NCBI GenBank assembly: GCA_017303795.1
Contig: JAFLBR010000009.1
Span: 140,200 to 204,199 of the forward strand
DNA: 64,000 bases
Source of the DNA: Cytophagales bacterium
GTDB lineage: Bacteria > Bacteroidota > Bacteroidia > Cytophagales > Cyclobacteriaceae
Reading direction: 5' to 3'
Under the pieces are notes generated by a model, which was not told the DNA's origin, searched no databases, and saw only the letters and a program-made list of their open reading frames with translations. Positions within the stretch are counted from its first letter, which is position 1; each line of letters starts with the position of its first letter. Of the stretch, positions 26,820 to 44,270 are shown one piece after another. A program made the translations under genes and the position numbers.

Positions 26820-29303
26820 ATGAAAAAAGCTTTACTCCTCTTCTTACTGCTTCCAGCAATTGCCTACTCTCAACATCAATCCAAACTTACCCGCATCGAT
26901 TCGGTGCTCACCTACCTGCATCAATACCATATGTTTAATGGTACGGTGCTGATTGGCGAAAAAGGGAAAGTGCTCTATAAAAAAGCTTTCGGCATAGCCC
27001 ATCCACAAACTCAACAGCCACTTACTACCGCATCGGCTTTTAACCTGGCTTCGGTAAGCAAACAGTTTTATACCATGATGGCCATGATTTTGAAAGAGCA
27101 AGGCAAACTGGCTTACGATGATACCGTGCAAAAATACTTACCGGCCTTTCCATACAACAACATCACCATTCGTCAGCTCATGAATCAGACTTCAGGGTTG
27201 CCTGAATACTTCGACATAGCTCAAGGCGATATGAATCCGTTGGACACACTCACCAACGCTTCCATGCTCGAATTACTGGCGCTTAAAAACCCAGCACTGG
27301 TTTTTGAGCCCGGTACACAATGGCAATACTGCAACACCAACTATACTACGCTTGCCTCCATCATTGAAAAAGTTTCGGGGCTTACCTCTCAGCAATTTTT
27401 TGCAAAGCATATTGCGGCCCCGCTTAAACTCAAGAACAGTTTTGTCTATCATCTTAAATTAAAATCGTATCCGCCTGCGCGTGTATTTGGGTTGGAGTAT
27501 GATGGTGTCAACTATAAGCTCAACGATCTGGTTCGTTTTGATGGTATTGTTGGCGATGGTAATGTGTACGCTTCCGCAGAAGATTTATACCTATGGGATC
27601 AGGCCTTGTATACCAAAAAGCTGGTAAAGAAAACTACGTTTAATGAAGCGCTTACAGCAGGCAAACTGAACAATGGGAAACATACGGAGTATGGCTTTGG
27701 TTGGTTTATCCGCGAGCCAGGAAAAATTGTTTCGCACACCGGAGGTTGGGTTGGGTTCGGAACGGAGATCACCCGCTACATCGATAAAAATCAAACCATC
27801 ATTGTGCTGGACAACTCGTCTAACTTTCGCGCCCACGCGCTTGTAAAAAATATTTGGGAAGGCAAGCCTATTGCATTGCCAAAAACGCATTTGATTACAA
27901 ACGTAAAAGTTATAGATGGTACAGGCTTGCCCGCAGTGGCTGGTGGTGTACGAATACTCAACAATCGCATCTGGCATGTGGGCAAGCTCACTCCGTTTGC
28001 CGGTGAAGCTGTTACCGATGGTAATGGAAATGTGCTGGCTCCGGGCTTTATCGATAATCATAGTCACCACGATGGCGGCCTTGAAAAAAATCCATCGGCT
28101 GTAGCCGTTACGAGTCAGGGTATAACTACGATCGTGGTAGGGCAAGATGGTGGTTCGGATACGATGGATTCGATTGAACATGCCTTAAAGAAAATTCCGG
28201 TGAGTGTAAACGTTGCGTCTTATACAGGGCAGGCTTCCTTGCGGGAAAAGGTGATGGGAAAAAATCTATTGCGCAAAGCCACACCGGTTGAGATTGATTC
28301 GATGAAAGTGCTGTTGGCCCGCGAGATGGAGAAAGGCTCGTTGGGATTAAGCACCGGCCTGGAGTATGAAGCTGCCTTTTACAGTTCGCGCGATGAAGTG
28401 GTAGCTCTGGCAAAAGTAGCTGCTGAAAAAAATGGTCGCTACATCAGTCACATCCGCAGCGAAGATCTGAACATTGAAGAAGCGATTGATGAGATTATTC
28501 AAATCGGCCATGAAGCCAAAATACCCGTACAGGTTACGCACATAAAAATTGCCATGCGCAGCAAGTGGGGCAACTCCGAAAAAATTCTACGACAATTGGA
28601 AATGGCGCGGCAACAAGGTGTAAACATCACAGCCGATATTTATCCGTACACCATGTGGAACTCTACACCTCGCGTGCTCTTCCCGAAAAAAGATTTTGAA
28701 AATTTGGCCAGTGCTGAGTTTGCAACCCGCGAGTTGTTTGACCCGGCAGCATCGGTAATGGTGCGGTACACCCCACAACCGGCCTGGCAAGGAAAAACAG
28801 TAAGCGAGATAGCTGCGATCAATAAAGAAACTTCTGCGCAAGCACTTCTTCGTATCATCCGCGAAAGCGCAGCTCCGGAGCAAGGTGCTACTATTGTAGC
28901 CAAGAGCATGAGCGAAACTGACATTAGTAATTTTATGAAGTGGCCGTACACCAGCATTTGTTCGGATGGTACCATGCGTGGGCATCCGCGTGGGCACGGA
29001 TCGTTTACGCGCGTGTTGGGGAAATATGTGCGCGAAGAAAAATTGATGTCGTTGGAAACTGCTATTCAAAAGATGACGAGCCTGGCAGCAGAAAACGTAG
29101 GGATTAAAAACCGCGGCCTGATTGTACCGGGTTATTTTGCCGATCTTGTCTTATTCAATCCGGAAACGGTAATTGATAATGCCACCATCGAAAACCCGAC
29201 AGCATTATCTACCGGCATAGAATACGTGTGGGTAAATGGCAAGCTGGTTTATCAAAATCAGAAAGCCGTAGAGAATTATCCTGGCGTATTGTTGAAGAGA
29301 TAG
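26820..29303 (+). CDS. Fusion: serine beta-lactamase-type hydrolase + D-aminoacylase-type amidohydrolase
   Basis: The 827-residue protein has a signal peptide (residues 1-17). Residues ~20-345 are a class C beta-lactamase/DD-peptidase fold with Ser78-Val-Ser-Lys81, Tyr170-Cys-Asn172 and His306-Thr-Gly308. Residues ~355-825 are an amidohydrolase like N-acyl-D-amino-acid deacylase: VKVIDGTGLPAVAGGVRI, GFIDNHSHHDGG (His414, His416), HIRSEDLNIEEAIDE, VTHIKIAM, SDGTMRGHPRGHGSF and PGYFADLVLFNPETV. Both halves keep their key residues. A shared D-amino-acid amide or peptidoglycan-derived substrate processed in the periplasm is my inference. Confidence 0.92.
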   Translation: MKKALLLFLLLPAIAYSQHQSKLTRIDSVLTYLHQYHMFNGTVLIGEKGKVLYKKAFGIAHPQTQQPLTTASAFNLASVSKQFYTMMAMILKEQGKLAYDDTVQKYLPAFPYNNITIRQLMNQTSGLPEYFDIAQGDMNPLDTLTNASMLELLALKNPALVFEPGTQWQYCNTNYTTLASIIEKVSGLTSQQFFAKHIAAPLKLKNSFVYHLKLKSYPPARVFGLEYDGVNYKLNDLVRFDGIVGDGNVYASAEDLYLWDQALYTKKLVKKTTFNEALTAGKLNNGKHTEYGFGWFIREPGKIVSHTGGWVGFGTEITRYIDKNQTIIVLDNSSNFRAHALVKNIWEGKPIALPKTHLITNVKVIDGTGLPAVAGGVRILNNRIWHVGKLTPFAGEAVTDGNGNVLAPGFIDNHSHHDGGLEKNPSAVAVTSQGITTIVVGQDGGSDTMDSIEHALKKIPVSVNVASYTGQASLREKVMGKNLLRKATPVEIDSMKVLLAREMEKGSLGLSTGLEYEAAFYSSRDEVVALAKVAAEKNGRYISHIRSEDLNIEEAIDEIIQIGHEAKIPVQVTHIKIAMRSKWGNSEKILRQLEMARQQGVNITADIYPYTMWNSTPRVLFPKKDFENLASAEFATRELFDPAASVMVRYTPQPAWQGKTVSEIAAINKETSAQALLRIIRESAAPEQGATIVAKSMSETDISNFMKWPYTSICSDGTMRGHPRGHGSFTRVLGKYVREEKLMSLETAIQKMTSLAAENVGIKNRGLIVPGYFADLVLFNPETVIDNATIENPTALSTGIEYVWVNGKLVYQNQKAVENYPGVLLKR

Positions 29304-33691: not shown

Positions 33692-34036
33692 GGGGGATAG
33701 GGATAATGGTTAACCTAAAAGTAAGCATTTAAACCAAACCGAATCATATCAGTAACGCTAGCATTGGGCTAACTACCTTATAGCATCTATGAAGTATGCT
33801 TTCATGTACCTATGGAATTGATGGGTTACTTATAGCCTTACCCGGTAAGTGTGTTGATGCAGTTTATACTGTTAGAACAGTAAAGAAGTAAGTACTTATA
33901 CCTGCTTAGTGTTAGGCTAACCATAGCTTTTAAGAATAAATATTGACAAGTACTTTACTTTAATAATAATATTTATTGAAATTGCGTACGCTATGGCAAA
34001 TAGTAATTTACTGCACCCTCTGCGGTTATCGGGTTT
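33692..34036. other. 345-bp intergenic region with candidate promoter for the ATP-grasp pair
   Basis: I see no gene. TTGACA (33943-33948), 18 bp, TAATAT (33967-33972) is a sigma70-like match 65 bp before the first ATP-grasp gene, although most Bacteroidota promoters use TAnnTTTG instead. A 7-bp inverted repeat (TACTGTT/AACAGTA) lies near 33868-33883. Confidence 0.35.
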
Positions 34037-35128
34037 ATGACACTACTCAACGATACCACCGCCTATAAAATCTGGATATTTGCTCCTTATCTGGAGACGG
34101 AAGACCCGACTCTAAAATTTTACTACGACTATACTCAAAGCATTGAAGAATACACGCGGGTATTCGCTGAAATCAATTGCGAATGGGAATGGGTAAATGT
34201 AACGGTACATAACATTGCCGAAGCAATAGAGCGGGTAAAGAGCTACTCCACCAAGCAAAGCATAGTACTAAACCTGTGCGATGGCGATGAAATTAACAAC
34301 GTCCCCGGAGTATCGGTTATTCATGCATTAGACGAAAGCGGTATTACCTACACCGGTTCCGATTCTTACTTCTATAATGTAACCACTTCTAAAATCACCA
34401 TGAAGGAAGCTTTTGGTAAAGCCGGGGTGGCCATGCCGGGGTGGCAAAAGCTAAACGGACACATCGATCCGGATCTTTTCAAGAAGGTGGGCAAACCTAT
34501 TATTGTTAAGCCTGCCGTTTCGGCTGGCAGCATGGGCATCAGTGTAAAGAACGTTGTTAACGGCAAGCGCCAGTTAAAGAGTGTACTCAACGAACTACAC
34601 GAAGGCTTTAAAGGTTGGGATTTGAATACAGCCGGTTTGTTGGCCGAACAGTTTATAATCGGGCGCGAGTTTACCACACTGTTGGTAGGATCGCACCATA
34701 AACCCGAACAGATTAAATTCTATCAACCTATAGAACGTGTATTCCATAAAGGCTTACCCGAAAAAGAACAGTTCCTTTCTTTCGAACGCCTGTGGGAAGC
34801 ATACGATGAAGAAGCACCGCCACCGGACAATGGATTTCTGTATGAATACGCCCCGGTTATGGATTTCTGTCTGGCCCAGGAATTAAAAGAGCTAAGCATT
34901 GATGCCTTTAAAGCCGTGAAAGGCGTAGGTTATGCACGGCTCGATTTCAGGCTGGATAAGAAAACCGGAAAACTATTTGTATTAGAGATTAATGCCCAAT
35001 GTGGCTTAAGCGAAGACGAGAACTATACCTCCATAGGCGCTATTCTGCGCGTAAGTAATAAAACCTTCACCAACCTGATTGTAGAAGTGCTGGAAGATGC
35101 CCTGCTTCGCAATACAGCCAACAGCTAA
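34037..35128 (+). CDS. ATP-grasp ligase, D-Ala-D-Ala ligase-like
   Basis: The 363-residue protein has the ATP-grasp fold of D-Ala-D-Ala ligases: an N-terminal domain (IVLNLCDGDEINNVPGVSVI, ITYTGSDSYFYNVTTSK), the nucleotide-binding PIIVKPAVSAGSMGISV, and LFVLEINAQCGLSEDENY supplying the metal-binding Glu and Asn. The typical PG of ligases (EVNTxPG) is replaced by CG. Such enzymes form amide bonds between an ATP-activated carboxylate and an amine. The neighbour at 35161 is a diverged relative fused to a SET domain; the 32-bp gap indicates one operon. Substrate is unknown. Confidence 0.88.
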   Translation: MTLLNDTTAYKIWIFAPYLETEDPTLKFYYDYTQSIEEYTRVFAEINCEWEWVNVTVHNIAEAIERVKSYSTKQSIVLNLCDGDEINNVPGVSVIHALDESGITYTGSDSYFYNVTTSKITMKEAFGKAGVAMPGWQKLNGHIDPDLFKKVGKPIIVKPAVSAGSMGISVKNVVNGKRQLKSVLNELHEGFKGWDLNTAGLLAEQFIIGREFTTLLVGSHHKPEQIKFYQPIERVFHKGLPEKEQFLSFERLWEAYDEEAPPPDNGFLYEYAPVMDFCLAQELKELSIDAFKAVKGVGYARLDFRLDKKTGKLFVLEINAQCGLSEDENYTSIGAILRVSNKTFTNLIVEVLEDALLRNTANS

Positions 35129-35160
35129 CAAACAAAATCCCTGTAAAAAGAAATCCGGAT

Positions 35161-36606
35161 ATGAAGGTTTGTGTGTTGCAGCCCGATTACAGTACAACCG
35201 AAGTTGATTATAAAAACTACGATCCGCCCCGTAACCTGGCCCCACTGTTACCAAACGATCAGGTAGATCATGTATTCCTGAATAAGCTTACCACGTACAA
35301 ACAACTTAAAGAACTGCGCAAGCAGAAGTACGACATCTTTATAAATCTGTGCGAAGGGTATCTGGATTGGTCTGTCCCTTCCATTGATGTGATCAACGCG
35401 ATGGATTCGCTCAATCTGCCATACACTGGCCCGAATGCTATTCTGTACGATCCGGCCAAGCCGTTAATGAAGTATGTAGCTTATTGTGCGGGTGTTAAAA
35501 CGCCACTCTTTGCCGAAGTTACCAGCACCAAAGACCTTGAAGCGAAAGTAAGCAAGCTAACGTTTCCGTTGTTTGTAAAACCAGCCAAAGCAGGCGATAG
35601 TCTGGGCGTGGATGATGAATCGCTGGCCAAAGACTTTGCACACTTAAAACATAAAGTGGAGAGCCTGATGGAAGAAGGCTACGATGAAATCTTAATTGAA
35701 GAATACATAGCCGGGCAGGAGTTTACCGTGTTGGTAGCGGCCAACGTTCGGCCAACGTTCGGCTCCAAAGCATTTAAACCTGTTGAATACAAATTCCCGA
35801 AAGGGTATGCCTTTAAAACCTATGCATTAAAAACATCTGAGCTGCATACCGATGTAAACAAACCCTGCGAAGATGCTGCCCTGGAAACCCGGTTAAAATC
35901 TGCTGCCGAAAAAATCTTTACCGGATTTTCGGGTGTGGGTTATGCGCGGTTGGATTTTAGAGTAAACGAAAAGCAGGAAATCTATTTTCTGGAAATCAAC
36001 TTTACGTGTTCTGTATTTTATCAGGATGGCTACGAAGGTTCTGCCGACTACATTCTTCAGTTTGATCCCATCGGCAAAGCCGGATTTCTAAAACACATTA
36101 TTGCCGAAGGTATTGCCCGCCATCAGGCCAAACAAAAAAAGTATCGCATTAAAGGTAATTCCATTAATGGCTATGGAATTGTTTCGCAGAAGGCGATTCA
36201 AAAAGGTGAAGTGATTTTTAAAATTGAAGAATCGGCCCAGCGCATTGTTACCAAACGGTATGTAGAACAAAACTGGACGCCCGAACAATTGGAAGAGTTT
36301 CGCCATTATGCTTACCCGGTTTCGGATGAAGTATATATTCTGTGGGATCAAAAACCTGAAAACTGGGCTCCGCAAAATCATAGCTGCGCACCCAATACCG
36401 TTTACGATGGTCTTAACCTGATAGCGCTGCAAAACATAGAAGCGGGCGAAGAGCTTACCTTGGATTATGCCGATTTGTTGGATGATAACATTCAATCATT
36501 TGTGTGTACGTGCGGTCATCCTAACTGCAGGAAAGTTGTTTCCGGCCGGGCCGATAATTCGGTAACACACCGCGAGAAGATTAATGTAAATCCTCCGCAG
36601 CGGTAA
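35161..36606 (+). CDS. ATP-grasp ligase fused to a SET methyltransferase domain
   Basis: The 481-residue protein has an N-terminal ATP-grasp half (IFINLCEGYLDWSVPSIDVI, LPYTGPNAILYDPAKPLMK, PLFVKPAKAGDSLGV, IYFLEINFTC) related to the gene before it. Residues ~325-465 form a SET domain: GNSINGYGIVSQKAIQKGE, NHSCAPN (406-412), GEELTLDY (429-436) and a post-SET CxCx4C (Cys449, Cys451, Cys456), which with Cys409 could bind zinc. SET domains transfer methyl groups from S-adenosylmethionine to lysines. Every signature motif is intact. The combination suggests a peptide or amide is made and methylated by one protein. The product and target are unknown. Confidence 0.92.
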   Translation: MKVCVLQPDYSTTEVDYKNYDPPRNLAPLLPNDQVDHVFLNKLTTYKQLKELRKQKYDIFINLCEGYLDWSVPSIDVINAMDSLNLPYTGPNAILYDPAKPLMKYVAYCAGVKTPLFAEVTSTKDLEAKVSKLTFPLFVKPAKAGDSLGVDDESLAKDFAHLKHKVESLMEEGYDEILIEEYIAGQEFTVLVAANVRPTFGSKAFKPVEYKFPKGYAFKTYALKTSELHTDVNKPCEDAALETRLKSAAEKIFTGFSGVGYARLDFRVNEKQEIYFLEINFTCSVFYQDGYEGSADYILQFDPIGKAGFLKHIIAEGIARHQAKQKKYRIKGNSINGYGIVSQKAIQKGEVIFKIEESAQRIVTKRYVEQNWTPEQLEEFRHYAYPVSDEVYILWDQKPENWAPQNHSCAPNTVYDGLNLIALQNIEAGEELTLDYADLLDDNIQSFVCTCGHPNCRKVVSGRADNSVTHREKINVNPPQR

Positions 36607-37229: not shown

Positions 37230-37441
37230 ATGCTTTGAATGTGAAAATATTAAATAAAACCAGATGGCTTTGCACCAAACACAAACCTTGAAAAAGGATT
37301 TGAATCGAGTTAACGAACTTAAATAATTTTTACACCGTACTGGTTTTCCACCTCCGGTATCCGGATTTATAATCAAATCCTGTAACTTTCCTTAACCGGA
37401 TTGCTTTGGCAGCGATGCAACCGCTCACTTCACTTACCACC

Positions 37442-40126
37442 ATGAAGAAAATACTTTACCTGATTACAATAACGGCCATTTCGGTGGTCGCAGTCTGGTA
37501 TTTCCTCCCCAATTCTAAGATTGATTACAACACACAGGTAAAACCCATCCTCAATAAAAAATGTATTGCCTGCCATGGTGGCGTTAAGCGCGAGGCTGAA
37601 TTCAGTTTGTTGTTCCGGCAGGAAGCACTCGCCAAAGCAGAGTCGGGAAAGTATGCCATCGTACCCGGTGATGCCGCACACAGCGAACTGGTAAAACGTA
37701 TTACGGCAACCGATCCGCAAGAGCGCATGCCCTACAAAAAAGACCCGCTTACAAAAGAAGAGATTGACATTCTTACAAAATGGATTGAAGAAGGTGCCGC
37801 GTGGGGCGATCATTGGGCTTACGTGGCCGTGAAAGAACAAACTGTTCCTGAAAAAAATAATTGGACAAAAAACGATGTTGATGCTTTCATTCTTGAAAAG
37901 CTGAACGACCATAATCTGGAACCTTCGGCTGTAGCCGATAAAGCCACGCTGCTCAGAAGAGTTAGTCTCGATCTGATTGGCATTCCCGCTCCCGAACCAA
38001 TTGCCCAACGCTTTTTATCGACCACCGATCCAAACGCCTATGAAATGTTGGTGGATGAACTGCTTGCCTCCAAACAATATGGCGAACGCTGGACCAGCAT
38101 GTGGTTAGACCTGGCGCGCTATGCCGATACCAAAGGGTACGAACGGGATGACAGTCGCGCCATCTGGCGTTACCGCGATTGGGTGATCAACGCCTTTAAT
38201 GCCGATATGCCCTATAACCAGTTTATCACCGAGCAATTGGCGGGCGATTTACTGGATAGTCCTACCGATGATCAATACATCGCTACAGCCTTTCATCGCA
38301 ACACGATGACGAATGATGAGGGCGGCACCGACAATGAAGAGTTTCGTACGGCTGCGGTGTTGGATCGTGTAAACACCACGTGGGAAGCGTTGATGGGAAC
38401 TACGTTTGCATGTGTGCAATGTCATAGTCACCCGTACGATCCGTTTACACACGATGAATATTACAAGTTCATGGCTTTCTTTAACAACACCCGCGATGAA
38501 GATACCGAAGCCGAATATCCTTTGCTGCGTCATTTCGAAAAAGAAGATGCTGAAAAACTAAACACACTTACTGCGTGGATTGATCAAAACATCTCAGCCG
38601 AAAAGGCTAAAGAAGTTTATCGCTTTGCGAAAACATTACAACCCAGTATCAACTCTATCCAAGCCGATCAGTTTATCAACAGCGAATTAACCGATACCAA
38701 GTGGCTCATATTTCGTAATAACGCTCAATGCCGGTTGCCGAATGTAACCCTTACCGGAAGCAATAGACTCATCTATCGCTACAGTAGTTGGGTTAACGGT
38801 GGCGTTTGGAAAATTCATTTGGATAAACCCGATGGACCGATTATTAAAACCATTGCGGTTAAGCCCACAAATAACCAATGGCAGATTGTAGATTTTACAT
38901 TCGAACCAATTGATGGCGCACACGATTTGTATTTTACCTATACCAGTCCCAACCTCAAAACTGCCGATGACAGCGGAATGATTTTCGATTGGTTTTACTT
39001 TACAGATGATTGGGACAACAAAAACACTGAGATGAGCAAAACGTTTTGGGAGTTGGTGCGCAAAGAGCCACCCACTACGCCCATCATGTTCGATAATCCT
39101 GAAAAGATGAAGCGGCCCACGCAAATTTTTGAACGGGGCAATTGGTTAGTAAAAGGCGATGTGGTGGAAGCTGCCGTTCCGCATACGCTGAATGCATTTC
39201 CAAAAGATGCTCAGTCAAATCGTTTGGGACTTGCACATTGGATGACAGACCCAACCAATCCCTTAACCGCACGGACTATTGTGAATAGAATCTGGGAACA
39301 GATTTTTGGAACTGGTCTTGCCGAAACCGTGGAAGACCTCGGTACACAAGGCATCGCGCCCACGCATTCGGAATTGCTCGATCACTTAGCGTGGAAGTTA
39401 GTGCATGATTACAACTGGAGTTTAAAAAAGCTGATGCGCGAAATTGTATTATCGGCTACGTACCGGCAAACATCTGATGTAAATGAAGAACTTCTGGAAA
39501 AAGATCCGCTCAATAAATTATATGCGCGAGCACCGCGTGTGCGGCTCTCTGCCGAGCAATTGCGCGACCAGGCATTGGCTGTAAGCGGATTGTTAAGTAC
39601 AAAAATGTATGGCCCGAGTGTAATGCCGTATCAACCGGCTGGTATTTGGAAGTCGCCCTGGAACGGACAAGATTGGAAAATGAGTACGGGAGAAGACCGG
39701 CATCGCAGATCACTTTATACTTATCTGAAACGCACTGCACCTTACCCTTCCATGCTTACTTTCGATGGTGCTTCACGAGAAGTATGTACCGCCAGGCGTA
39801 TTCGTACCAACACACCTTTGCAGGCATTGGTAACGTTAAATGATTCTGTGTATGTGGAAGCTGCACATCATCTCGCGTTGAAGATGCAAACACAAACTTC
39901 CGTGAAGGAACAAATTGGTATGGCCTATGAAATGGCCACCGGCCAAAAAATTTCCGAACGAAAATTAGCTGCGCTTGAAAAATTATATACAGAAGGCATG
40001 AAAGAATATCAGGGCGGAACGATGGTAAAAGTTCGCAACAAAAACACAGGTGAACCCCAATTGAAAGCATTGAGTCTGGTAGCGGCCGCGATTTTGAATC
40101 TGGATGAAGTGGTAACGAAGAATTGA
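37442..40126 (+). CDS. Planctomycete-type cytochrome/DUF1549/DUF1553 secreted protein
   Basis: From ATG 37442 the 894-residue protein has a membrane anchor (residues 3-22), then a haem-binding CIACH at 41-45 (PSCyt1-type domain, GGVKREAEFSLLFRQEALA, SELVKRI), a DUF1549 domain (LRRVSLDLIGIPAPEP, SKQYGERWTSMWLDLARYADTKG, NDEGGTDNEEFRTAAVLDRVNTTW, ACVQCHSHPYDPFTHDEYY), a beta-rich middle, and DUF1553 (NPLTARTIVNRIWEQIFGTG, SRRSLYTYLKRTAPYP). These proteins pair with DUF1501 proteins, here next door. Function is unknown; a second CVQCH may bind another haem. ATG codons at 37415 and upstream are less likely because they precede the anchor. Confidence 0.92.
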   Translation: MKKILYLITITAISVVAVWYFLPNSKIDYNTQVKPILNKKCIACHGGVKREAEFSLLFRQEALAKAESGKYAIVPGDAAHSELVKRITATDPQERMPYKKDPLTKEEIDILTKWIEEGAAWGDHWAYVAVKEQTVPEKNNWTKNDVDAFILEKLNDHNLEPSAVADKATLLRRVSLDLIGIPAPEPIAQRFLSTTDPNAYEMLVDELLASKQYGERWTSMWLDLARYADTKGYERDDSRAIWRYRDWVINAFNADMPYNQFITEQLAGDLLDSPTDDQYIATAFHRNTMTNDEGGTDNEEFRTAAVLDRVNTTWEALMGTTFACVQCHSHPYDPFTHDEYYKFMAFFNNTRDEDTEAEYPLLRHFEKEDAEKLNTLTAWIDQNISAEKAKEVYRFAKTLQPSINSIQADQFINSELTDTKWLIFRNNAQCRLPNVTLTGSNRLIYRYSSWVNGGVWKIHLDKPDGPIIKTIAVKPTNNQWQIVDFTFEPIDGAHDLYFTYTSPNLKTADDSGMIFDWFYFTDDWDNKNTEMSKTFWELVRKEPPTTPIMFDNPEKMKRPTQIFERGNWLVKGDVVEAAVPHTLNAFPKDAQSNRLGLAHWMTDPTNPLTARTIVNRIWEQIFGTGLAETVEDLGTQGIAPTHSELLDHLAWKLVHDYNWSLKKLMREIVLSATYRQTSDVNEELLEKDPLNKLYARAPRVRLSAEQLRDQALAVSGLLSTKMYGPSVMPYQPAGIWKSPWNGQDWKMSTGEDRHRRSLYTYLKRTAPYPSMLTFDGASREVCTARRIRTNTPLQALVTLNDSVYVEAAHHLALKMQTQTSVKEQIGMAYEMATGQKISERKLAALEKLYTEGMKEYQGGTMVKVRNKNTGEPQLKALSLVAAAILNLDEVVTKN

Positions 40127-40131
40127 TAGAT

Positions 40132-40368
40132 TAAACCGCGGAGGCGCAAAGAGCGCTAAGTAGTTTTAAGAGAAATTGATTTGACTGTAATTGAATAATT
40201 TGCTCCTAACTCGTTCCTCTCTGCGGAGAGGGATTAAGGGTGAGGCCAACAAAGATGGTTTGTGGGGACACAAACCATGGAATAGTGTGAGGAAGACAGA
40301 AACTTAAACGAAATAAATTAACACGAGTCCAAGCCCCTCTCCTTTGGAGAGGGGTTGGGGTGAGGCCA
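40132..40368. repeat. Repeat-filled leader of the DUF1501 gene
   Basis: The 248-bp gap before the DUF1501 gene contains a half copy of the AACCGC repeat (40132-40162), two CCTCTCC-type elements (40203-40245 and 40331-40368) and a 10-bp perfect hairpin ATGGTTTGTG/CACAAACCAT (40255-40278). Both CCTCTCC elements end GGGTGAGGCCAACAA. The second hairpin, CCCCTCTCCTTTGGAGAGGG (40334-40353), sits about 20 nt before ATG 40375. Confidence 0.7.
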
Positions 40369-40374
40369 ACAACC

Positions 40375-41865
40375 ATGAACGAAAAATTTATCCACGAACT
40401 TCAGCGTAAGCAACTCGAGGAAACTACGAGGCGACATTTCCTGCGCGAGTGTATCGCAGGCATGGGTGGACTTGCACTGGCATCGGTATTTGGAAGTTGT
40501 AATCCGTTCGAGAAGCAAGACAAATACGCTGCGTTGTTTTCATCTAACCCGCTTGCACCCAAAGCACCGCAGTTTATTCCCAAAGCAAAATCAGTAATCT
40601 ATCTGCACATGGCCGGTGCGCCTTCGCAGTTAGAGTTGTTCGATTACAAACCTGCACTGCATAAACTCGATGGCCAGGATTGCCCGCAGTCGTTGCTGGA
40701 AGGAAAAAAATTTGCTTTCATTCGGGGTGTACCCAAAATGTTGGGGCCGCAAGCCAGCTTTAAACAGCACGGACAAAGTGGAGCGTGGGTATCGGAAAAC
40801 CTGCCACACTTTTCTTCAATTGTAGATGAAGTTACATTTCTCAAAGCCATGCAAACCGATCAGTTCAATCATGGCCCGGCACAATTATTAATGCATACCG
40901 GTAGTGCGCGCCTTGGGCGACCGAGTATGGGCTCGTGGGTAACCTATGGTTTGGGAAGTGAAAATCAGAACTTGCCCGGCTTTGTAGTGCTTACTTCAGG
41001 TGGCACCAATCCGGATGCAGGCAAGAGTGTGTGGGGCAGTGGATTTCTTCCGTCTGTGTATCAAGGCGTGCAATGTCGTAGCGAAGGCGATCCGGTGTTG
41101 TTCATCAAAGATCCGGAACATATAACACGCGATCTGCGCAAAGCTTCTATTGATGCGATTAACGAAGTGAATAAAATTCATTACGAAGAAAAAGGCGATC
41201 CGGAAATTCTATCGCGCATAGCGCAATATGAAATGGCGTATCGCATGCAGATTTCCGTACCGGAAGTAATGAACATTAATGACGAGCCACAATACATTCA
41301 CGAAATGTACGGCACCAAACCTGGCGAAGTAAGTCTGGCCAACAACATTCTGCTTGCGCGAAAGCTGGTAGAGAAAGGTGTGCGCTTTGTTCAGATTTTT
41401 GATTGGGGTTGGGATAGCCACGGCACAGATTCTAATCTTGCCATTGATGTTGGCTTTGTGAATAAATGCCGCACGGTAGATAAAGCCATGACGGCTTTGA
41501 TACTTGATTTAAAACAACGCGGATTGTTAGATGAAACATTAGTAGTTTGGGGTGGTGAGTTTGGTCGCACGCCTATGGCCGAAAATCGCGAAGGCAAAAA
41601 GAATCCGTTTAAAGGTCGTGATCATCACACCGAAGCATTTACGGTATGGATGGCTGGTGGCGGAGTGAAGAAAGGATTTACCTATGGCGAAACGGATGAG
41701 ATTGGCTACTCCGCTATCAGCGGCAAAACAACTCCGTTCGATTTGCAGGCTACCATTCTTAATCAACTTGGATTCGATCATGAAAAACTCACATACGAAT
41801 TCCAAGGGCGACCATTCCGCTTAACGGATGTACATGGAAAAGTAATTCACGAAATACTGGCTTAG
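40375..41865 (+). CDS. DUF1501 secreted protein
   Basis: The 496-residue protein starts with a Tat-like signal (TRRHFLRECIAGMGGLALASVFGSC); only one leucine-rich stretch follows the RR pair. The body matches DUF1501: KAKSVIYLHMAGAPSQLELFDYKP, NHGPAQLLMHTGSARLGRPSMG, VQIFDWGWDSHGTD, RGLLDETLVVWGGEFGRTP, GRDHHTEAFTVWMAGGGVK. The family has an alkaline phosphatase-like fold. It is the usual partner of DUF1549/DUF1553 proteins, as the preceding gene. In planctomycetes this pair is linked to polysaccharide use. The upstream GTG extension (40360) is spurious. Confidence 0.9.
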   Translation: MNEKFIHELQRKQLEETTRRHFLRECIAGMGGLALASVFGSCNPFEKQDKYAALFSSNPLAPKAPQFIPKAKSVIYLHMAGAPSQLELFDYKPALHKLDGQDCPQSLLEGKKFAFIRGVPKMLGPQASFKQHGQSGAWVSENLPHFSSIVDEVTFLKAMQTDQFNHGPAQLLMHTGSARLGRPSMGSWVTYGLGSENQNLPGFVVLTSGGTNPDAGKSVWGSGFLPSVYQGVQCRSEGDPVLFIKDPEHITRDLRKASIDAINEVNKIHYEEKGDPEILSRIAQYEMAYRMQISVPEVMNINDEPQYIHEMYGTKPGEVSLANNILLARKLVEKGVRFVQIFDWGWDSHGTDSNLAIDVGFVNKCRTVDKAMTALILDLKQRGLLDETLVVWGGEFGRTPMAENREGKKNPFKGRDHHTEAFTVWMAGGGVKKGFTYGETDEIGYSAISGKTTPFDLQATILNQLGFDHEKLTYEFQGRPFRLTDVHGKVIHEILA

Positions 41866-41919
41866 CTAAATCATTATCGACTGAAAGTCGATAGGTTTGA
41901 CAAATGAAATCAAATAAAA

Positions 41920-41990
41920 TAAGCCACTGATTGCACTGATTTTCACAGATAAAAATATCTGTGCTCATTTGTGAAATCTGTGGCAACAGA
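41920..41990. repeat. CACAGATT-type dispersed hairpin repeat
   Basis: CACAGATA and TATCTGTG (41947-41966) form an 8-bp stem with a 4-nt loop, inside a larger imperfect palindrome from AAGCCACTGATT to TCTGTGGCAAC. It fills most of the gap before the TIM-barrel gene. Confidence 0.6.
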
Positions 41991-42005
41991 AAACTTAGAC
42001 AACCC

Positions 42006-42923
42006 ATGAAAATCAACCGCAGAAGTTTTATCACCACATCCGCAATGGCCGGATCAGGTCTAATGCTTGGCTCGTTAGAAAGTTTTGCCAAGCCACTTGC
42101 TCAACAAACAAAAGCCGGATATTCGTTATTGATCTTCGCTACCAACTGGGGCTTTAATGGATCGTATGATGAATTCTGCGCTAAAGCCAAAGCAGCAGGT
42201 TACGATGGTTGCGAAATCTGGTGGCCGGGCGATGCAACTGATCGAAAGAAATTGTTTGATGCTTTAACCAAACACAATCTGAAAATCGGATTTCTATACG
42301 GCAGTGGCGAAAAAGATTTCGCAAAACACGAAAATCAATTCAACCAATTTCTTACGGAGGCAGCAGCAACCAAACCGGTTTTTATAAACTGCCACAGTGG
42401 TAAAGATTATTTTACGGCCGATCAGAAAGAAAAATTAATCAAACATTCCATAACCGTTTCTGCCCAAAGCGGAATTCCCATCTATCATGAAACGCATCGT
42501 GGCCGGGCTTTATACTCCGCACCGGTTACAGAAGAATTGATCAAACGCGTTCCGGGTTTACGGTTAACGCTCGACATCTCGCATTGGTGTAACGTACACG
42601 AATCGTATCTGGACGATCAGGCTGAAACTATTAACCTTGCGTTAAGTCGCACCGATCACATTCATGCGCGTATTGGTCACCCCGAAGGACCGCAGGTAAA
42701 TGATCCGCGCGCACCGGAATGGGATTATGCTGTTAAAACTCATTTTGCCTGGTGGGATAAAATTGTTGAATCAAAAAAACAAGCGGGTAAGCAGATGACA
42801 TTCTTAACAGAGTTTGGTCCGGTAGATTACATGCCGGCTTTGCCCTACACGCGCCAGCCGGTTGCCGATCAATGGGCTATTAATGTGTACATGCTGGAGA
42901 TTCTGCGCAAGCGTTATTCATAA
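42006..42923 (+). CDS. Tat-exported sugar phosphate isomerase/epimerase-like protein
   Basis: The 305-residue protein has a Tat signal (NRRSFITTSAMAGSGLMLG) and a xylose isomerase-like TIM barrel: FCAKAKAAGYDGCEIWWPGD, KHNLKIGFLYGSGEKDF, KPVFINCHSGKDYF, SGIPIYHETHRGRALYSA, GLRLTLDISHWCNVHESYLDD, DHIHARIGHPEGPQV, FLTEFGPVDYMP. The metal-binding Glu, Asp, His and Glu residues of the fold appear in HETHRG, DISHW, HARIGHPEG and TEFGP. Such proteins isomerise or dehydrate sugar-like substrates. Export by Tat suggests a folded periplasmic enzyme acting on material released by the neighbours. Confidence 0.85.
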   Translation: MKINRRSFITTSAMAGSGLMLGSLESFAKPLAQQTKAGYSLLIFATNWGFNGSYDEFCAKAKAAGYDGCEIWWPGDATDRKKLFDALTKHNLKIGFLYGSGEKDFAKHENQFNQFLTEAAATKPVFINCHSGKDYFTADQKEKLIKHSITVSAQSGIPIYHETHRGRALYSAPVTEELIKRVPGLRLTLDISHWCNVHESYLDDQAETINLALSRTDHIHARIGHPEGPQVNDPRAPEWDYAVKTHFAWWDKIVESKKQAGKQMTFLTEFGPVDYMPALPYTRQPVADQWAINVYMLEILRKRYS

Positions 42924-42929
42924 TTTAGA

Positions 42930-44270
42930 ATGGAATTTATCGGTCGCCTACATCCATTACTGGTTCACTTGCCCATCGGCATATTATTACTCGCTGTGCT
43001 ATTCGAGTGGTTGCCATTTCGCAAACCGTACAAATCACTCAGGCGATCTATCCGAATTATTTTGTGGTTAGGATTTTTTGCTGCACTGTCATCTGTAGTG
43101 AGTGGTTTGTTATTAAAAGAAAGTGGTTATGATTTGCAGTCGGTTAAGTTGCATCAGTTTGCTGGTATTGCGCTTACGCTGATTACCGGAGTGTATGCAT
43201 GGGCGCGTGGCCAAAAACAATTCAAGCGCATGTATAAATTTTTATCGGTGCTTGTGTTGTTGTTGTTATTGACTACCGGGCATCTGGGCGGAACACTTAC
43301 ACACGGTGAAAATTTTTTGTTTGCTTCCGCGAGTACTGAAACCGAATTGACGCAGGTTAATTTACAACAAGCACATTTTTATAACGATCTGGTTAAACCG
43401 ATCCTCGATTCCAAATGTTATGCCTGCCACGCATCAGGCAAACAAAAAGGCAAACTCAGATTAGATGCACCCGAATACATTTTAAAAGGCGGCAAAGGCG
43501 GAGTAATCCTTGTGGCTGGTAAAACAGATGAAAGTGAATTAATCCACAGAATTGTATTACCGCTTGATGATGACGATCACATGCCGCCCAAAGAGAAAAA
43601 TCAACTCACGCAAAGTGAGGTGGAAATTTTGAAATTGTGGATTGCCTCGGGCGCTGATTTTGAAAAATCTGTAGTTGAAAGTAATCAGCTTGGAGCGCTG
43701 CAAAAAATTCTCACCACTAAAAAACCAGAACCGGCTGCAGAAATTCCAGAAGGCAATCCTGATGCAGCCAATCCAACAGTTATTAATGAGTTAATGCAAT
43801 TAGGCGCAGTGGTGCTACCAGTGGCCAATGGCAGCCATTACCTTTCGGTGAATCTGGTAAATGTGGTGGCCGTTGATTCGGCTCTTGATTTATTGGTAAA
43901 AGTAAAACAACAAACAGTTTGGCTGAAGGCGGGTGACTTATCGATTAATGATTCGCATCTTGCCAAACTCGCACAACTCAATCAGCTTATTAAACTGAAC
44001 GTAGAACGCACAGTTGTTACCGATACCGGGTTATCACAACTCAATGCGTTAACACAACTGCAATACCTCAACCTGAACCAAACCACCATCTCGGCAACCG
44101 GAATAAAACAACTTACCAGTTTAAAAAATCTGCGTTCATTATTCGTCTTCGACACAAAGGTTACTGCCGATGATGTACCTGAATTACAAAACATTTTCCC
44201 CAACGCAAAAATTGAAATCGGAAATTATATAGTACCAACCCTTGAAACAGATACTATTATCTTAAAGTAA
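42930..44270 (+). CDS. DUF2231 membrane domain + cytochrome c + leucine-rich repeats
   Basis: The 446-residue protein starts 6 bp after the isomerase-like gene. Residues 1-125 form about four membrane helices with RLHPLLVHLPIGILLLAVLF (DUF2231). Residues ~150-235 are a PSCyt1-type haem domain with CYACH (163-167), DESELIHRIVLPLDDDDHMP and LKLWIASGADF. The C-terminal ~130 residues are leucine-rich repeats (LIKLNVERTVVTDTGLSQLN, LQYLNLNQTTISATGIKQL). It is a membrane electron carrier with a binding module, plausibly taking electrons from the secreted oxidation step. Confidence 0.85.
   Translation: MEFIGRLHPLLVHLPIGILLLAVLFEWLPFRKPYKSLRRSIRIILWLGFFAALSSVVSGLLLKESGYDLQSVKLHQFAGIALTLITGVYAWARGQKQFKRMYKFLSVLVLLLLLTTGHLGGTLTHGENFLFASASTETELTQVNLQQAHFYNDLVKPILDSKCYACHASGKQKGKLRLDAPEYILKGGKGGVILVAGKTDESELIHRIVLPLDDDDHMPPKEKNQLTQSEVEILKLWIASGADFEKSVVESNQLGALQKILTTKKPEPAAEIPEGNPDAANPTVINELMQLGAVVLPVANGSHYLSVNLVNVVAVDSALDLLVKVKQQTVWLKAGDLSINDSHLAKLAQLNQLIKLNVERTVVTDTGLSQLNALTQLQYLNLNQTTISATGIKQLTSLKNLRSLFVFDTKVTADDVPELQNIFPNAKIEIGNYIVPTLETDTIILK

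Follow-up and report, generated by a model that had tools for sequence, protein, structure and literature searches.

Within a 64,000-nucleotide stretch of DNA from a Cytophagales bacterium (the window, by which we mean the whole stretch analysed), two adjacent genes, A and B, encode a stand-alone ATP-grasp ligase and an ATP-grasp ligase that carries a C-terminal SET domain, SET2. Our analysis suggests that A and B supply the ligases of a small-molecule pathway, in which dedicated SET enzymes would methylate a small peptide of non-ribosomal origin or an amino-acid conjugate, a reading to which we assign a probability of roughly 0.6. Because the fusion is conserved and is accompanied by a separate SET gene (SET1) and usually by a second ligase, these genes probably belong to an undescribed pathway for a small methylated peptide rather than to a system that marks proteins. 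The two genes and their motifs are located as follows.

34037..35128, + strand: gene A, stand-alone ATP-grasp ligase (Dala_Dala_lig_C family), 363 amino acids
35161..36606, + strand: gene B, ATP-grasp ligase with C-terminal SET domain, 481 amino acids
35161..36138, + strand: ATP-grasp part of B, about residues 1-326 (Pfam, fold search)
36142..36552, + strand: SET domain of B (SET2), about residues 328-464, SET-I kept (Pfam 337-436)
34985..35005, + strand: E-x-N-x-x-C-G motif of A, residues 317-323, CG replacing PG
35992..36012, + strand: E-x-N-x-x-C-S motif of B, residues 278-284, CS replacing PG
36376..36396, + strand: NHSCAPN motif of B, residues 406-412 (SET motif)
36445..36468, + strand: GEELTLDY motif of B, residues 429-436, with Tyr436
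36505..36528, + strand: post-SET C-x-C-x4-C of B (C449-x-C451-x4-C456)
33943..33970, + strand: promoter-like site 5′ of A, 11/12 matches (weak evidence)

Promoter-like sites in the region numbered 7 against a shuffle mean of 6.7, which is chance level, and terminator patterns were likewise found at chance level only.

A preliminary description of this DNA had reported tandem ATP-grasp genes at 34037-36606, the second fused to a SET domain. Both open reading frames were confirmed, 32 bp apart on the + strand, with Pfam matches above the gathering scores: A matches Dala_Dala_lig_C (E 1e-13), and B matches the same family over residues 124-280 (E 3e-19) and SET (PF00856) over residues 337-436 (E 2e-12; 48.0 bits versus a gathering cut-off of 22.4). 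The three SET motifs stand where that description had placed them, and the loss of PG from the ligase motif that it had noted holds throughout the alignments. A reads E317-I-N-A-Q-C-G323, with C322 and G323 invariant in 26/26 rows, and B reads E278-I-N-F-T-C-S284, with N280, C283 and S284 invariant in 30/30 rows and E278 conserved in at least 90%. Also invariant in all 30 rows of B are K140, E187, R263 and D265, which together with N280 presumably serve ATP and magnesium binding as in D-Ala-D-Ala ligase (Ddl), as well as the SET residues N406, H407, C409, N412, Y436, C449, C451 and C456. Structure prediction with AlphaFold2 (30-row alignment) yielded a model of B with a mean predicted local distance difference test (pLDDT) score of 80.6 and a predicted template modelling (pTM) score of 0.77, the SET half being less sure than the ligase half. 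The best 50 of 1671 PDB matches of this model were D-Ala-D-Ala/D-lactate-type ligases (Foldseek, best E 2e-19), with no SET fold among those 50. The predicted fold and the conserved ATP/Mg residues fit membership of B in the ATP-grasp carboxylate-amine ligases, and the alignments support the joining of a ligase and a methyltransferase domain, both with conserved putative active sites, in one conserved protein.

Homologues of B were found at 54 loci in the GTDB collection, with 51-88% identity in the best segment. These loci are mostly labelled Cytophagales, Cyclobacteriaceae, Chitinophagaceae or Bacteroidetes; further carriers are Propionivibrio dicarboxylicus DSM 5885, a Rhodocyclaceae metagenome-assembled genome (MAG), a Fibrobacteres MAG and one MAG labelled Williamsia. 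B is present in 14/36 genomes of the host genus (host included) and in 15/296 genomes of the phylum, and these occurrences, together with the 54 loci, rule out an assembly or sequencing join, the artefact of which the preliminary description had warned. Over both domains of B, 140 columns are at least 95% identical (54 rows, namely 53 loci and the window; L052 was too short), and 89 columns of A are at least 95% conserved (48 rows, namely 47 loci and the window; L036 was too short). The distances of the ligase half and the SET half of B rise together (Spearman 0.69). No relative was found in the viral contigs scanned, Rfam gave no match, and a plasmid-borne fusion was rejected because no place in the plasmid collection covered 80% of B, the two matches there being to the ligase only. 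Our literature search retrieved no paper on a bacterial ATP-grasp-SET fusion; of two papers that contain both terms, one concerns TTLL12, a different fusion, and an earlier mention in the 2009 amidoligase survey of Iyer and colleagues is possible. A review of bacterial SET proteins treats them as chromatin-related, and its main text does not use the words "ligase", "fusion" or "ATP-grasp" (PMC3980110).

The system is wider than the two genes of the preliminary description: SET1 lies outside the window, transporter partners occur in other lineages, and there are two types. Clustering of the neighbours of B (all neighbour counts refer to the 54 loci of the first GTDB search, L055 and later being left out) revealed A at 48 loci, a membrane protein at 18 and SET1, a separate SET protein of about 167 amino acids, at 28. 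The host SET1, of 159 amino acids, is encoded on another contig (G000:C1:632146-632592). A whole-genome search for SET1, covering the genomes with G handles, found it in 14/14 genomes of the host genus with B and in 1/22 without B (G006, 87% complete; Fisher 4e-9). In the phylum sample, SET1 likewise occurred in 15 genomes, 14 of them in common with B (Fisher 7e-22), and B and SET1 are each spread over 8 genera, 7 in common. Because the genomes are related, these Fisher values overstate the co-occurrence. In G024, a single-contig assembly with an intact B, the SET1 gene (G024:C1:739363-739807; L089, L092) is in pieces that lie in several frames with stops. The host has five SET-domain matches in total, two of which lie close together on opposite strands (G000:C5:78493-79287; L194, L195).

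The order of the genes varies while the set is kept. A lies directly 5′ of B in 46/54 loci and in the window; of the six loci without A, three (L011, L014 and L052) have the start of B at most 4 bases from the contig end, the others being L044, L045 and L048. Of the 28 loci that carry SET1, 23 have it immediately 5′ of A; other genes part the two in L021, L038, L047 and L054, and in L048 SET1 directly precedes B. Exact 4-bp overlaps were observed at 8/47 A-B junctions and 3/23 SET1-A junctions. SET1, A and B may be adjacent, SET1 may lie apart from A-B, as in the host, or SET1 and A may lie together with B on another contig, as in G267. The membrane protein is located 3′ of B, on the same strand in 17 of its 18 loci, 12 of which have SET1 too; the one member checked by Pfam is an ABC_membrane_3 protein (PF13748, E 2e-42). 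In G090, SET1 follows the membrane protein, and in Propionivibrio the order is SET1-ABC exporter-A-B.

Type I, to which the host and another five genomes of the phylum sample belong, has A in 6/6 genomes (E < 1e-149), whereas type II, comprising eight genomes, has no separate A at the 1e-30 limit. The FMO protein, which is typical of green sulfur bacteria, was found in 8/8 type II genomes versus 0/7 of the others searched. The type II operon at L153 encodes SET1 (168 amino acids), B (492), a complete ABC exporter with membrane and ATPase domains by Pfam (604) and a third SET protein, SET3 (118). Clustering and profiles gave the same order in L154, L155, L156, L157 and L159, and it recurs in L152, where B is present and overlapped by another frame; at L158 the contig ends after B. 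G266 carries a type II-like B with none of its partners within 19 kb. The two type II fusions read here, L153 and L151, have CG at the ligase-motif place where the host B has CS. In a ligase tree of 37 chosen rows, for which the program warns of long branches, A and B are joined (100/100) and type II B, that of G266 included, groups with type I B (100/98). Because of this grouping, the split between A and B looks older than the divide between the two types. SET3 is the last gene of the green sulfur operon (L153:11756-12112); its profile match includes stops in 4 of the 6 genomes listed, perhaps by overrunning the gene end.

Protein-lysine methylation is the activity for which SET domains are mostly known, the BurB type being a recent exception. 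BurB was the best PDB match of SET1 by sequence and the best SET match of SET2 by sequence. A model of SET1, built for the L020 homologue (pLDDT 90), retrieved BurB at PDB ranks 1-3 (E 4e-9 to 1e-8), with MLL1 next (1e-6). The premise of the preliminary description that SET enzymes methylate protein lysines is therefore incomplete, since this nearest solved relative methylates free methionine as an S-methyltransferase (PDB 9l4t, 9l4v; PMC12542666). BurB shares with our SETs the tyrosine of the DY/FY motif, whose change to alanine nearly abolishes its activity according to that report (PMC12542666), and with SET1 a short SET-I. It differs in being a single 172-amino-acid enzyme of dimethylsulfoniopropionate (DMSP)/malleicyprol synthesis (PMC12542666) with no known tie to ATP-grasp ligases, in having LHSC where SET1 and SET2 have NHSC, and from SET2 in that the SET-I of the latter is long. 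Because BurB holds methionine mainly via main chains (PMC12542666), side chains do not predict a methionine substrate.

We placed these domains in a midpoint-rooted tree of 64 chosen rows, in which an Eleftheria homologue stands in for BurB itself. SET1, SET2, the BurB-like SETs found on plasmids of Eleftheria, Tabrizicola, Deinococcus and Streptomyces, and another three SETs encoded in genomes of the host order cluster together (36 rows, 97/98), to the exclusion of 26 other bacterial SETs and two MLL domains. In this tree, SET1 and SET2 group with BurB-like rather than histone-type SETs. Amino-acid or polyketide clusters surround two of the four BurB-like SETs on plasmids: the Eleftheria gene is part of a polyketide cluster that also encodes an aminotransferase and an aldehyde dehydrogenase, both step types of DMSP synthesis, and the Tabrizicola gene lies beside a GHMP kinase, a pyridoxal-phosphate enzyme (PALP), a DMT transporter and an alanine racemase. 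The latter region, on the 21-kb Tabrizicola piscis plasmid NZ_CP034331.1 (L097:1124-6128), is a possible small amino-acid pathway.

SET-I lines the substrate groove of histone/lysine methyltransferases, and we measured its span as the residues from the GE motif to NHSC, with the fragmentary SET1 copies L089 and L092 excluded. The span is 39 in SET1 (42/42) and 36 in SET3 (one counted), as compared with 47-52 in the 26 other bacterial SETs, 54 in the two MLL domains, and 37, 37, 38 and 48 in the BurB-like rows. In SET2, it is 57 in 54/54 rows, the window included. Because this stretch is short in SET1 and SET3, both look shaped for small molecules; SET2 keeps room for a larger substrate, possibly the peptide made by B.

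On the ligase side, the TIGR01205 (D-Ala-D-Ala ligase) cut-off of 245.65 bits was not reached by A (71.4) or B (77.1), and both fall below the cut-off of every NCBIfam family shown (25 per protein). These low scores support the view that A and B are not ordinary D-Ala-D-Ala ligases. They share with Ddl the predicted fold, with Ddl-type enzymes as the best PDB folds for B, and the ATP/Mg residues; they differ in that Ddl keeps the ExNxxPG loop, where CG (A) or CS (B) is invariant here, and has no SET fusion. An ordinary Ddl duplication was rejected, because A and B, which are joined in the tree, score below the cut-off and are separated there from four proteins of the genus that we take, from their sequence, to be Ddl-like. 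MysD may be close to B, judging from the NPNCG...GSADFIL motif, and is not known to carry a SET domain. In mycosporine-like amino acid synthesis, MysD is a D-Ala-D-Ala ligase homologue acting on small metabolites (PMC11983340). Phosphonoalamide tripeptides are built by two ATP-grasp ligases, PnaB and PnaC (PMC11867202), a resemblance to the role proposed for A and B that lies in the use of two such ligases in one peptide pathway; the system is from Streptomyces and is not known to include a methyltransferase fusion. At L184 (genes up to 7478; G228) and L185 (up to 7349; G314), tandem ATP-grasp genes are followed by a GNAT gene and a lysine-2,3-aminomutase-like radical SAM gene, which looks like another peptide or solute pathway, and L188 has a similar layout. 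Descent of A-B from these aminomutase-linked pairs found no support in the long-branch-flagged ligase tree.

From the observed domains, conservation, co-occurrence, gene order and SET kinship, we infer every chemical step, substrate and product of the following model. SET1 would methylate a free amino acid, either by S-methylation of methionine, as BurB does, or by N-methylation of lysine or a related residue; methionine is favoured by the BurB kinship, and lysine by usual SET chemistry and the distant L184/L185 ligase sets. A and B would form one amide bond each by converting a carboxylate to its acyl-phosphate and coupling this to an amine, so that the product would resemble a di- or tripeptide. 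SET2, being tethered to B, would methylate a substrate or product of the ligase, and the ABC transporter may move the product in some lineages. We also consider it possible, at somewhat short of an even chance, that this is an undescribed and widespread system in which up to three SETs per cluster methylate free amino acids and an ATP-grasp-made peptide, with ligation and methylation coupled in one chain. If so, Bacteroidota, green sulfur bacteria and some Rhodocyclaceae would make a new class of peptides that bear sulfonium or methylammonium groups, a product class searchable by mass spectrometry. With a conserved system of three or four genes that unites SET enzymes, peptide ligases and, in places, an exporter, small-molecule chemistry would then be a main role of bacterial SETs, which would help to explain their presence in free-living bacteria and bear on the origin of SET chemistry.

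Several observations weigh against a methylated small-peptide pathway. The genomes behind the co-occurrence counts are not independent of one another phylogenetically; B lacks its SET1 partner in G266, a weaker SET1 stands without B in G314, and no SET1 lies within the sequence retrieved at 26/54 loci (L031 and L033 among them). Neither the green sulfur type nor G266 has a stand-alone A. ABC_membrane_3 was above the cut-off in 0/58 genomes (host and relatives), where other ABC exporters were not searched; because of this absence, the ABC_membrane_3 transporter is not general, and in this set of genomes it was rejected as a required part. SET1 joins the BurB-like rows weakly (81/77) in a midpoint-rooted tree with long branches, the SET-I span of 48 belongs to the Streptomyces BurB-like row, and the Streptomyces and Deinococcus plasmid genes have no clear pathway context. 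The long SET-I of SET2 fits a peptide or a protein substrate equally, as in lysine enzymes.

This last point leads to protein modification, the other idea of the preliminary description, in which B would ligate an amino acid or tag to a protein and SET2 would methylate its lysine, a bacterial parallel to TTL-like enzymes. The long SET-I of SET2, part of the peptide groove in lysine enzymes, is the only thing found that points to protein tagging here, and a precedent exists in human TTLL12, which joins SET-like and ATP-grasp-like (TTL) domains in one chain (PMC3520985). TTLL12, however, has the SET-like domain first and the TTL-type ligase, of another ATP-grasp family, last; as described there, it appears to lack the critical SET asparagine and showed no histone methyltransferase activity in vitro (PMC3520985), and we take it as an unrelated fusion. 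Moreover, the ligase family nearest in sequence and fold works on amino acids, and, with A, SET1 and the transporter set aside, the next neighbour groups are an amidase syntenic in near relatives (10 loci and the window) and a single-strand binding protein of one family (10 loci). We therefore regard protein modification as unlikely, and the making and methylation of a small peptide stands as the better of the two earlier ideas.

Two further alternatives concern the nature of the peptide. A ribosomal, graspetide-like precursor modified by A, B and the SETs would match the familiar layout of ribosomally synthesized and post-translationally modified peptides, in which an ATP-grasp enzyme accompanies a transporter, but the ligases score as Dala_Dala_lig_C. 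No conserved precursor was found across lineages among open reading frames of 20-110 amino acids within 900 bp outside the core (ten largest groups; gaps between core genes not scanned): the largest common group spans 6 loci of close host relatives and seems to shadow the amidase gene that flanks them. A ribosomal origin is thus very improbable. As a special case of the small-molecule pathway that we favour, the product could instead be an intracellular protectant, a compatible solute or betaine-like peptide in which, for instance, methylated lysine or S-methylmethionine is linked to a second amino acid; transport would then be secondary. The lack of an ABC_membrane_3 gene above the cut-off in the host and relatives would suit this, as would the related SET-less ligase pairs at L184 and L185, since enzymes of the GNAT and lysine 2,3-aminomutase types make N-acetyl-beta-lysine. 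Those pairs, however, are not direct relatives of A and B in the ligase tree, and other lineages have an ABC exporter in the operon, which leaves a protectant rather unlikely.

The genes flanking A-B in the host were rejected as pathway partners. Besides the amidase, the host neighbours recur at few of the 54 loci (PSCyt protein 6, DUF1501 protein 5, xylose-isomerase-like protein 6). A short-chain dehydrogenase/reductase (SDR) group occurs at 7 loci, namely three near relatives and, at other positions, L015, L042, L043 and L050. The 10 loci with the single-strand binding protein are of Chitinophagaceae type and also share an unnamed 124-amino-acid protein. Elsewhere in the window, positions 26820-29303 (+ strand) encode an 827-amino-acid protein in which a beta-lactamase/serine hydrolase domain is joined to an amidohydrolase domain. 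Positions 37406-44270 (+ strand) encode, in a row, a planctomycete-type PSCyt1/DUF1549/DUF1553 protein, a DUF1501 protein, a xylose-isomerase-like TIM barrel and a PSCyt1-DUF2231-LRR protein.

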